In this document: piece by piece, positions 3,493 to 34,296 of the stretch
How positions within the stretch are numbered: position 1 is the stretch's first letter
Layout: the number at the start of each line of letters is the position of its first letter
Assembly (NCBI GenBank): GCA_021731695.1
Contig: JAKFWZ010000014.1
Coordinates: 1-35,590, forward strand
Length of the DNA stretch: 35,590 nucleotides
Direction: 5' to 3'
DNA from: Candidatus Daviesbacteria bacterium
Lineage (GTDB): Bacteria; Patescibacteriota; Microgenomatia; Daviesbacterales; UBA10151
Notes under the pieces: generated by a model
What the model was told of the DNA's origin: nothing
Database searches by the model: none
Seen by the model: only the letters and a program-made list of their open reading frames with translations
Program-made: the position numbers and the translations under genes

Positions 3493-3559
3493 GTCATCCC
3501 GAGCGAAGTCGAGGGATCTGTAGGTTCAAACTAATGGATTCCTCATTCTTCGGAATGAC
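3493..3559. repeat. Paired inverted REP/BIME-like intergenic element
   Basis: GTCATCCCGAGCGAAGTCGAGGGATCT ... GGATTCCTCATTCTTCGGAATGAC: two convergent GTCAT...GGAT units. Confidence 0.7.
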
Positions 3560-17595: not shown

Positions 17596-18699
17596 CTAAA
17601 GTTTCTGAACTTGAAGAAAATCCAGCTCAACGGGTGTTTCACGACCGAAAATGGAAACGAGGACTCTAACCCGCCCTTTTTCTTTATCAACTGAATCAAC
17701 TTTTCCAATAAATTCAGCGAAGGGTCCGTCAATGATCTTGACAGTATCGTCAACCATAAAGACATCTTTGAATGTCGGCTGCGCGCCTTGTGAAGTGAAT
17801 TTAACGATCGTTGAAACTTCAGCTTCTGAGATTGGAGTTGGTTTATTGCCGGATCCGATAAAGCTGGTAACGCCCTGAGTCGTGCGGACTGCGAGCCACG
17901 AAAGATCGCTTAATTCCATTTTGATTAAAATATATCCGGGGAATATCTTTTCTTTAACAGTTTCTTTTTTACCGCCTCTGATTTCGATTTTATCCTGCGT
18001 GGGGACTAAGATATCGTAGATTAAATTTTCTAAATGTTCAGCTTCAATTCTTTGTTTCAAAGCTGCTGCAACTTTGTTTTCGTGACCTGCGAAAGTATGA
18101 ACAACATACCATCGGGCGTTTGGATTTGCAGGAACTGCAGGCTCTTGTTTCGCAGAGTCGGAGGAGTCAACGGCAGCTTCGCTGTCCTGAGTCGGAGGAG
18201 TCGAAGGTTCTTTTTCGTCTGACTCTTTTGACTCATCTGAATCCCGAGTTTCCTCAGTTAATGCAGCTTCTTCAGTTTTCTGTTCTTCAGTTTCTGCAGT
18301 TTCGTCTGAAGTCTGAGAGCTGATAGCTGAAGGCTCTTTTTCAGATTCTTCAGATGTTTCAACTGCATCAACCGGTGTTTGGGCTGATGACTGAGAGCTG
18401 ACGTCTGATGACTCTTCTTTTAATGCTGCAAACGGATTTTCGGTATTATCATTCTGGCTTCCATCGGAAGGGTGTGTTGGAGCGTCGTGAGCCGAAGCCT
18501 CAGACTCGATCTGGGGGACGTCAGAATCTTGAAGATCTTCAGATCGCAAGCTCTGCTTATTTTGAGCTTCTAATCCAGATTGCGACGCTTCGCCCTCTGA
18601 GGCTTCGCTCGCAATGACACTTTCTTGAGCATCAGAAACATTCGACTCATCAGTCGCTTTAGTTACATCAGTTGCATCTTTATTATTATTGTCGTCCAT
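17596..18699 (-). CDS. nusG: Transcription antitermination protein NusG with ~190-aa acidic N-terminal extension
   Basis: NARWYVVHTFAGHENKVAAALKQRIE...FPGYILIKMELSDLSWLAVRTTQGVTSFIG and a C-terminal KOW region; N-terminus rich in S/E/D/T. Confidence 0.9.
   Translation of the reverse strand: MDDNNNKDATDVTKATDESNVSDAQESVIASEASEGEASQSGLEAQNKQSLRSEDLQDSDVPQIESEASAHDAPTHPSDGSQNDNTENPFAALKEESSDVSSQSSAQTPVDAVETSEESEKEPSAISSQTSDETAETEEQKTEEAALTEETRDSDESKESDEKEPSTPPTQDSEAAVDSSDSAKQEPAVPANPNARWYVVHTFAGHENKVAAALKQRIEAEHLENLIYDILVPTQDKIEIRGGKKETVKEKIFPGYILIKMELSDLSWLAVRTTQGVTSFIGSGNKPTPISEAEVSTIVKFTSQGAQPTFKDVFMVDDTVKIIDGPFAEFIGKVDSVDKEKGRVRVLVSIFGRETPVELDFLQVQKL
18577..18618 (-). repeat. REP-like palindromic element inserted in frame in NusG
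   Basis: Minus strand gtcattgcgagcgaagcctcagagggcgaagcgtcgcaatct, encoding VIASEASEGEASQS. Confidence 0.7.
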
Positions 18700-28581: not shown

Positions 28582-30597
28582 ATGGCTCAGAAATTTTATA
28601 TAATAGATTTTGATTCGACCTTCATTACCAGCGAAAGCCTGGATATTCTGGCAAAAATCAGCCTCAAAAACTCTCCTGAAAAGATCGCACAAATTGAGCA
28701 AATAACTAGGGATGGTATGGTAGGGAATATCGGATTTAGGGAAAGCTTACAAAAACGTTTGGCTTTGATGAGTTTTGGGGAAGCTGAAATTGGTAAGACG
28801 CTTAAGATACTTAAGAAACTTATTACTCCTTCAATTCTTCGCAACAAAAAGTTTTTTAAAGCAAATCCTGAAAGTATTTATATTATTTCCGGCGGATTTG
28901 AAGAATTGATTCTCCCCATCGTTGCGCCTTTTGGGATTAAGCCGGCGCATGTTTTAGCCAACAAGTTTATTTTTAATAAAGAAGGCAAAGTCATTGGATT
29001 TGATACGCAGCGTCCTACGTCAAAAGCTCAGGGTAAAGCCTTTGCAGTGGCTTCGCTAGCCCTACAAGATGAAGTTCTAATAGTAGGAGATGGATTTACA
29101 GATCTTGAGGTAAAGAAATTGAATCAGGGGTCAGCCAGGAGTTATAGGACTGGGCAAAAAGATGTCATTCCGAGCGAACATCGTGAGCGTCGGAATCCTG
29201 ATTCAATCAAGATTGCTACGCTCCTGCCTGCCGGCAGGCAGGTCGCTCGCAATGACACCTTCTATAAATTCATTGCCTTTACCGAGAACGTCAGGCGTGA
29301 ATCGATTATTAAAGAAGCGGATTTGGTTGTAAATGATTTTGATGAACTGCTATTTTTGAATAAAGCACCGTCTTCGGTTTCATATCCAAAGTCGCGGATG
29401 AAGGTTTTGCTTTTGGAAAATATAGAATCGACAGCTGTCGAGAATTTTAAGAAAGAGGGCTACCAAGTTAAGGCTTTAAAAAGTGCTTTGGGGGAAGAAG
29501 ATCTCATAGTAGAAATAAAAAATACTATGATTTTAGGGATTCGCTCAAAAAGTAAAGTTAGTAAAAATGTACTCAAAAATGCCCGATTATTAAAGGCGAT
29601 AGGTACGTTTTCGATTGGCACAGATCAAGTAGATTTAGGCTCGGCACTGGATTTTGGAATTCCCATTTTTAATGCACCTTACCAAAACACCCGCTCAGTT
29701 GTTGAGCTCGCAATCGGGGAAATGATTGTCTTAATGCGCGGAGTTTTTGATAAATCGAATAAAGCTCACGCAAAAATTTGGGATAAATCCGCGAAAAATT
29801 CAAATGAAATTAGAGGAAAAACTTTGGGAATAATTGGTTACGGAAATATCGGCAGTCAACTTTCGGTTCTTGCGGAAAGCTTAGGAATGCAGGTTTTGTT
29901 TTACGACAAAGTTGAAAAATTAGCTTTAGGAAATGCAGTTAAAGCCGTTTCAATGGATGAAGTTTTGAAAAAATCAGATGTAATTTCTGTCCATGTTTCA
30001 GGAGACCGGGAGCTGAACACTAACTTAATCGGCGATAAAGAATTTTCAAAGATGAAAGAAGGTGTAGTATTTTTGAATCTGGCGAGAGGTTTCATTGTTG
30101 ATATCAAAGCTTTAGTTCGCGCTTTAAAATCCGGAAAAATAAGGGGAGCAGGAGTTGATGTTTTTCCTGAAGAACCGAAATCGAAAGATGAACCTTTTAT
30201 AAGCGAACTCTCCGGACTTCCAAATGTAATTTTAACGCCTCACATTGGAGGCTCAACTGAAGAAGCTCAAAGAAATATTGCCCAATTTGTTTCAGGCAAA
30301 TTGATTGATTTTATGAATACCGGAGATACTGATTTATCGGTTAATTTTCCAAATATAACTTTACCAAAACAGGGGAATGCGCATCGTTTATTACATATTC
30401 ATAGCAATGTTCCAGGGGTAATGTCTCAAATTAATAAAGTTTTTTCTGATCATGACATAAATATTTTGGGACAATATTTAAAAACAAACGACAAAGTAGG
30501 GTATTTGATAACTGATGTAAACCGCAAATATGATGAAAAGGTTTTAGAGGAGTTGAAAGAGGTTAAGTCTACGATTAATTTCAGGGTGCTTTATTAA
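28582..30597 (+). CDS. Fused phosphoserine phosphatase (HAD) / D-3-phosphoglycerate dehydrogenase with ACT domain
   Basis: N-terminal FYIIDFDSTFITSESLDIL and VLIVGDGFTDLEVKK (HAD); then SerA GKTLGIIGYGNIGSQLSVLAESLGMQVLFYD, GAGVDVFPEEP, LTPHIGGSTEEAQ; C-terminal ACT. Confidence 0.88.
   Translation: MAQKFYIIDFDSTFITSESLDILAKISLKNSPEKIAQIEQITRDGMVGNIGFRESLQKRLALMSFGEAEIGKTLKILKKLITPSILRNKKFFKANPESIYIISGGFEELILPIVAPFGIKPAHVLANKFIFNKEGKVIGFDTQRPTSKAQGKAFAVASLALQDEVLIVGDGFTDLEVKKLNQGSARSYRTGQKDVIPSEHRERRNPDSIKIATLLPAGRQVARNDTFYKFIAFTENVRRESIIKEADLVVNDFDELLFLNKAPSSVSYPKSRMKVLLLENIESTAVENFKKEGYQVKALKSALGEEDLIVEIKNTMILGIRSKSKVSKNVLKNARLLKAIGTFSIGTDQVDLGSALDFGIPIFNAPYQNTRSVVELAIGEMIVLMRGVFDKSNKAHAKIWDKSAKNSNEIRGKTLGIIGYGNIGSQLSVLAESLGMQVLFYDKVEKLALGNAVKAVSMDEVLKKSDVISVHVSGDRELNTNLIGDKEFSKMKEGVVFLNLARGFIVDIKALVRALKSGKIRGAGVDVFPEEPKSKDEPFISELSGLPNVILTPHIGGSTEEAQRNIAQFVSGKLIDFMNTGDTDLSVNFPNITLPKQGNAHRLLHIHSNVPGVMSQINKVFSDHDINILGQYLKTNDKVGYLITDVNRKYDEKVLEELKEVKSTINFRVLY
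29164..29256 (+). repeat. Paired REP/BIME-like element inserted in frame in the SerB-SerA gene
   Basis: GTCATTCCGAGCG...GTCGGAATCC then GATTGC...CCTGCCTGCCGGCAGGCAGG...CGCTCGCAATGAC; 93 bp (31 codons) with a 20-bp perfect palindrome at 29223-29242. Confidence 0.8.
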
Positions 30598-33736: not shown

Positions 33737-34296
33737 ATCGAGTCACCCCCTCTCATAACAAACTTGACCCGATCAAGAAATGTTAATTTTTTAATATCAA
33801 TCTCTGAATTTTTTTTCTGACCCTGCCTGCCGGCAGGCTGGTTTTTATCCAAAACATTTCTGATTAAAACAAGTTGACTTTGCATTAATTCAGGCAAATC
33901 CTGAAACGCAAAAAATTTCGCTTCTGAAACTTCATGACTTTTTCTGAATTCTCCGCCGATAAATTCACCAACTAAGGAAATATCAATTCTCGCAGCTTCG
34001 CGATCCGTCCTTAAATTATATTGTTCGCTAACTCTGACGATTAATCCGGTTTCTTCTTCGATTTCGCGGGCTAATGCTTCCTTTGGATGTTCCTTTGACT
34101 TGATATATCCCCCCGGAAGACTCCAGCCCGTTTTCCCGCGATATGAATGCTTGCAAAGAAGTATTTCGTTTTTATCATTTAAAATCACACCGGTAACACC
34201 AATTAGAAATTCATCTTGAGTGGCGCGCATAGCAGCGAGCTGAACACTTTTGGGAAGAGCAAGTTTTTTCCAGGTTTTTGCCAGCATCGTCTTCAT
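33733..34296 (-). CDS. Nudix hydrolase
   Basis: GWSLPGGYIKSKEHPKEALAREIEEETGLIV is a canonical Nudix box. Confidence 0.92.
   Translation of the reverse strand: MKTMLAKTWKKLALPKSVQLAAMRATQDEFLIGVTGVILNDKNEILLCKHSYRGKTGWSLPGGYIKSKEHPKEALAREIEEETGLIVRVSEQYNLRTDREAARIDISLVGEFIGGEFRKSHEVSEAKFFAFQDLPELMQSQLVLIRNVLDKNQPAGRQGQKKNSEIDIKKLTFLDRVKFVMRGGDSI
33821..33842. repeat. CCTGCCGGCAGG palindrome inserted in frame in the Nudix gene
   Basis: ccctgcctgccggcaggctggt; 14-bp perfect palindrome 33825-33838 giving peptide QPAGRQG, the same core as 29223-29242. Confidence 0.8.

Follow-up and report, generated by a model that had tools for sequence, protein, structure and literature searches.

The serB-serA locus and its insert

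The window (the whole stretch of DNA analysed here, 35,590 nucleotides) contains a serB-serA fusion gene with a palindromic insert in its coding sequence. The features of this locus are the following:

28582..30597, + strand: serB-serA fusion ORF (HAD phosphatase, 2-hydroxyacid dehydrogenase, ACT), 671 aa, frame open through the insert (ORF list and Pfam)
29121..29163, + strand: about 12 further codons, QGSARSYRTGQKD, without counterpart in the same-genus ortholog
29164..29256, + strand: complete inverted-pair (dimer) element, 93 bp = 31 codons, encoding VIPSEHRERRNPDSIKIATLLPAGRQVARND; one member of a 13-copy alignment
29164..29196, + strand: left unit of the dimer, GTC tag and ATTCCGA...TCGGAAT hairpin, found by hairpin scan
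29197..29211, + strand: conserved spacer CCTGATTCAATCAAG of the dimer
29212..29256, - strand: right unit of the dimer, GTC tag and ATTGCGA...AGCAAT hairpin, loop enlarged by the nested palindrome
29223..29242, no strand assigned: perfectly self-complementary 20-bp palindrome CCTGCCTGCCGGCAGGCAGG of the second family, nested in the right unit and read as LPAGRQ in serB-serA

Pfam places PF12710/PF00702 on residues 7-176 of the protein, PF00389/PF02826 on residues 275-588 and ACT on residues 603-665, and the HAD and dehydrogenase catalytic motifs are undamaged in sequence. The sequence of 29164-29256 is exactly as the initial annotation had described it, and the frame is open for 671 aa, its HAD, 2-Hacid_dh and ACT domains flanking the insert. 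The reading of a paired, BIME-like (here also REPIN-like) palindromic element lying in frame in SerB-SerA is supported. The extent of 31 codons also stands, but the element itself, from GTC to GAC, encodes the peptide listed above, and about 12 upstream codons are extra as well when compared with the ortholog of the same genus (genome G001). Moreover, the two units were correctly seen as paired, while it was missed that CCTGCC/GGCAGG belongs to a separate, nested repeat family. The element is composite, with two asymmetric units and a nested second palindrome, and similar inserts are found in further genes of this genome.

Both units of the serB dimer read TGTC at the outer end, with the tag unpaired. 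The outer arms (29159-29177 and 29243-29261) are 19 nt long with 89% complementarity, and the inner arms lie at 29185-29203/29205-29223 and 29212-29232/29233-29253. Since the outer ends pair with each other, the entire element can fold as one long hairpin, with predicted energies of -45.0 kcal/mol on the plus strand and -49.2 kcal/mol on the minus strand (z of -5.8 and -6.0), which were reached by none of 200 shuffles. An RNA-family search of the window returned a tRNA only. RNAalifold found no double-sided changes in the dimer because its paired columns barely vary, a result that counts neither for nor against.

The insertion site is, as we assume from knowledge of the HAD family, the turn that leads from the helix behind motif IV into the next strand. 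When the protein was aligned by phmmer with solved phosphoserine phosphatases (3kd3, 6hyy), the alignment was interrupted from query residue 177 to 228, a stretch for which those chains have about 6 residues. Family knowledge and alignment gaps together indicate that the insert most likely occupies a loop. A single-sequence AlphaFold model had a pLDDT of 36 and was discarded.

Two repeat families in one genome

The genome of 1.45 Mb (assembly 97% complete, 102 contigs) contains 48 matches to the 13-bp core GTCATTSCGAGCG with at most one mismatch, and 24 matches on the plus strand and 25 on the minus strand (about 25 sites in all) to the inner palindrome core CTGCCGGCAGG; controls, with the pattern reversed in the case of the 13-bp core, gave 0 in both cases. 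At least 16 dimer copies are present (13 aligned and 3 more from the spacer pattern), and the 183 kb around the matches hold 23 inverted pairs (46 cores) and 43 unpaired cores; dimer counts, like those of genic copies, are lower bounds because they were gathered from stretches around matches and not across the whole genome. The 13 aligned dimers measure 74-113 bp; their alignment has 39 columns without variation, among them the two outer ends and the inner GGAATCYTGATT and AATCNAGATTGC blocks. In the rplD dimer, the 25-bp centre GGAATCCTGATTCAATCAAGATTGC (C48:3678-3702) is identical to that of the serB copy. Dimer DNA is found in intergenic positions too, at many loci. Further repeat copies were seen in the window itself at 145-180 (PEP carboxylase N-terminal region), 3493-3559 (an intergenic pair) and 18579-18618 (the acidic N-terminal extension of NusG, VIASEASEGEASQS).

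The five genic dimers that were checked all have lengths divisible by three (serB 93, purL 90, rplD 81, pcrA 87 and topA 72), for which the probability would be about 0.004 if lengths were random. This reflects selection on the survivors and does not in itself prove targeting. In-frame genic copies of one or the other family are present in topA, purL, pcrA, dnaG, atpD, gatA and pyrG.

In the serB dimer, the 20-bp palindrome CCTGCCTGCCGGCAGGCAGG lies in the loop of the GTCATTGC unit at CGA^AG, and it has this position at six or more other loci (C11:6736, C36:9072, C55:208 in shortened form, C3:25830, C2:47224 and C28:13003). It is also found outside dimers, with 14 clear genic copies in this genome (for example window 33822-33841, C3:14132, C8:23995, C18:8760, C20:3146 and C39:10943), in hosts that include dnaG, atpD, obg, gatA, gatC, pyrG, a heavy-metal P-type ATPase and a pseudouridine synthase. 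All 14 are read in one frame, LPAGRQ (PAGRQ), though stops are missing from all three frames. Within the class, the palindrome core occurs on either strand in 188 of 289 genomes, with controls near zero. In the genome richest in it (G223), none of 15 sampled copies lay within an ORF of at least 200 aa; thus, the genic habit of this palindrome is not universal.

The serB-serA gene is about 43 codons longer than its same-genus ortholog; the dimer accounts for 31 of these, and the remaining 12 or so lie upstream of it (roughly 29121-29163). No second copy of the 26-mer at 29130-29155 was found in the genome, even with 3 mismatches allowed. A comparison of the upstream 36 nt with the dimers gave as best similarity an 11-nt match, equalled by 17 of 500 shuffles. 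At 29118-29128, ATTGAATCAGG is an exact inverted copy (11 nt) of the dimer spacer. With these extra codons upstream, no target-site duplication could be delimited.

Empty sites and age of the insertion

In the ortholog of the same genus (about 67-69% identity), both the dimer and the roughly 12 flanking codons are missing from SerB-SerA, and the insert was not found in the orthologs of G010 and G037 either. These insert-free orthologs span the same genus, family and class, which points to a recent, frame-keeping insertion, and the peptide is not broadly shared. Both observations named beforehand as telling against the initial annotation (a motif unique in the genome, or a peptide conserved among orthologs) were looked for, and neither was made: the motif has many copies, and the insert is missing from three orthologs. 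The same-genus relative also lacks the dimers of topA and purL, and the 20-bp palindromes at the dnaG, pyrG, gatA, pseudouridine synthase, P-type ATPase and purP sites.

The dimer spacer pattern with core was matched 10 times in the genome studied, never in the same-genus relative (79% complete) and a single time across 36 further relatives, so that the dimer has expanded recently in this species. The single match lies in another genus (G021), in a DinB-type polymerase gene (L151:1110-2441), where this dimer type stands in frame directly behind the SIDE motif (VIPRERSDRRNPDSNLDCHAPSELAMT). Obg of the same-genus relative retains a decayed LPVGRQ, and the obg copy is therefore older.

Different palindrome-like repeat DNA, CCTTCGACTCGCTCAGGACAAGG, is found in AtpD of the same-genus relative (L094/L100) at the exact site of PAGRQ in atpD of the genome studied (L088). 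PurP offers a comparable case (L104 and L037), with differing palindrome-like inserts at the same protein loop in two species of one genus. Both sites suggest tolerant loops with recurrent insertion.

Which machinery moves the element

The initial annotation had suggested looking for a RAYT/TnpA_REP gene, and a link to one is not upheld by our searches: neither PF01797 nor NF047646 (the latter at E up to 10) detected a Y1 transposase or RAYT in this genome, and the Y1 genes sampled in relatives have different palindromes beside them. The mover might nevertheless be a RAYT (Y1 HUH transposase), as for the classical GTAG REPs, with its gene lost or missing from the assembly, since an assembly that is 97% complete and in 102 contigs could miss a gene. 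Y1 genes are present in 194 of the 289 genomes of the class, and the two repeat families are statistically associated with a Y1_Tnp gene, being commoner in genomes that have one (odds ratio of about 6.6, p < 1e-7, phylogeny being ignored). Against this, the two models find none here despite the third-highest GTCATTGCGAG count of the 289 genomes, and among 19 Y1 genes of repeat-rich relatives the immediate flanks contained the GTC core in 0/19 and the nested palindrome in 0/19. The CGTC superfamily is likewise without an associated transposase: Di Nocera et al. (2013, PMC3733652) reported that genomes with CGTC repeats hold Y1 genes, none of which is flanked by these repeats, the same pattern as in our study. 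We therefore regard a RAYT mover as unlikely.

The Y1 genes of relatives (L116-L135; G025, G254, G266, G017, G007 and others) mostly have palindromes of their own in their flanks (e.g. GCCTCAAAAGGGGACGCCTTG), resembling TIR-flanked tyrosine transposases. In one case (L116), the 3' flank harbours a further, nested palindrome.

Interpretation of the insert

Our preferred reading is that of a recently inserted, non-autonomous palindromic mobile element, consisting of two inverted GTC-tagged hairpin units with the tags outermost and a conserved spacer between them. Its architecture may be described as a REPIN-like pair of CGTC-like REPs, one of which harbours the second, 20-bp palindrome in its loop. 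Direct observations are the family of repeats, the paired architecture of the dimer with its nesting, the frame left open, and the relatives' sites without insert. The element would have entered serB-serA after the split of this species from its same-genus relative, presumably by single-strand, hairpin-based transposition, and would have survived because neither its length nor its content closes the frame. Most likely the element is translated and tolerated, its peptide forming a loop that links the helix behind HAD motif IV with the beta-strand after it, far from the catalytic motifs; it would be carried as selfish DNA with a near-neutral effect on the enzyme. Taken as a whole, this explanation (a recent, frame-keeping insertion of selfish palindromic DNA, likely translated and near-neutral) appears to us highly probable.

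It has been weighed against two other explanations. The 31-residue peptide might have been co-opted for a selected role in SerB-SerA, in regulation or in protein contact, and it could be put forward in this sense that the frame is kept with no stops through the insert and that the stretch RRNPDSIKIAT is common to the serB and rplD copies. However, the common peptide is explained by the common DNA, the spacer being identical, the same DNA is also present outside genes, and the three orthologs do without the insert; co-option thus seems improbable. The very stable hairpin predicted within the coding region might instead let the ribosome skip the element, so that the peptide would never be made. 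Such a bypass would need neither the multiple-of-three lengths of the genic dimers nor a frame left open in the direction of the gene, and one reading frame is common to the 14 genic copies of the nested palindrome; we give this idea hardly any credence. The reading as a recent, near-neutral selfish insertion is the one that we retain.

A broader and speculative possibility, which we would not favor at present, is that this lineage carries coding-compatible palindromes spread by non-Y1 machinery, that the second palindrome prefers the hairpin loops of the first (loop-directed nesting), and that core proteins (DNA primase, ATP synthase beta, GatA, topoisomerase I, SerB-SerA) are reshaped again and again by such layers of selfish DNA.

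In-frame coding palindromes are best known from Rickettsia; our results add a distant small-genome lineage, in which empty sites within the genus date some of the insertions, and provide an example of one selfish palindrome nested within another inside an enzyme gene. LPAGRQ or VIASEA..QS in predicted proteins are to be read as peptides of repeat DNA and not as conserved domains. Moreover, the presence of the element in a genome with no detectable REP transposase sharpens the question of how CGTC-type repeats move.

Comparison with known palindromic elements

In the open-access literature, we found neither LPAGRQ nor CCTGCCGGCAGG in the sense of a repeat insert, nor a description of such inserts in this lineage. 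The element adds to a known kind, coding palindromes, in a lineage for which we found no earlier report in that literature.

The CGTC-tagged REP superfamily includes Rickettsia RPE-4 and RPE-6 and Neisseria dRS3 (PMC3733652). Its members are defined by a CGTC, TGTC or CCTC tag, a stem of 8-9 bp starting with AT, a loop of 4-5 nt and a 3-nt tail that is mostly CCA, and they occur mainly as inverted dimers; other loop lengths are reported as exceptions in some species (PMC3733652). The present element shares the unpaired (T)GTC tag at one end of the unit, as do most other copies in the genome, and the stem beginning with AT, and it also shares the inverted pairs with spacers, the in-frame genic insertion and the lack of an associated transposase. 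In contrast, the perfect stem is 7 bp (ATTCCGA/TCGGAAT; ATTGCGA/TCGCAAT), the loops are of at least 9 nt and often hold further palindromes, the tail is CTTGATT or CCTGATT, and the pairs are asymmetric with a second palindrome nested in the loop. This genome also contains units whose stem and loop are of the described sizes (e.g. C2:60542, C2:11971). Since tag, AT start, inverted pairing and missing transposase fit whereas stem length, loop and tail do not, we consider the element a CGTC-like variant and not a strict member. The likeness to Rickettsia palindromic elements (RPEs) noted in the initial annotation holds, but its attribution to a different sequence family is only partly right, as the GTC tag, the AT-start stem and the inverted pairing are those of the superfamily that includes RPE-4 and RPE-6 (PMC3733652).

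REPINs and BIMEs also consist of two inverted REP units and a spacer that form one long hairpin, with conserved ends and pairing inner parts, but they are of GTAG type, extragenic and tied to RAYT (PMC3116915), none of which holds here. The RPEs of Ogata et al. (2000), as summarised in PMC10969869, are palindromic DNA of about 150 bp in protein-coding genes. They share with the present element the in-frame position of palindromic selfish DNA in many unrelated genes, a peptide tolerated by the host protein, and orthologs that lack the inserts; they differ from our aligned copies (74-113 bp) in length, in the unrelated small-genome lineage and in the nested second family found here. Judged from its sequence, the element is thus CGTC-like and behaves like the coding RPEs.
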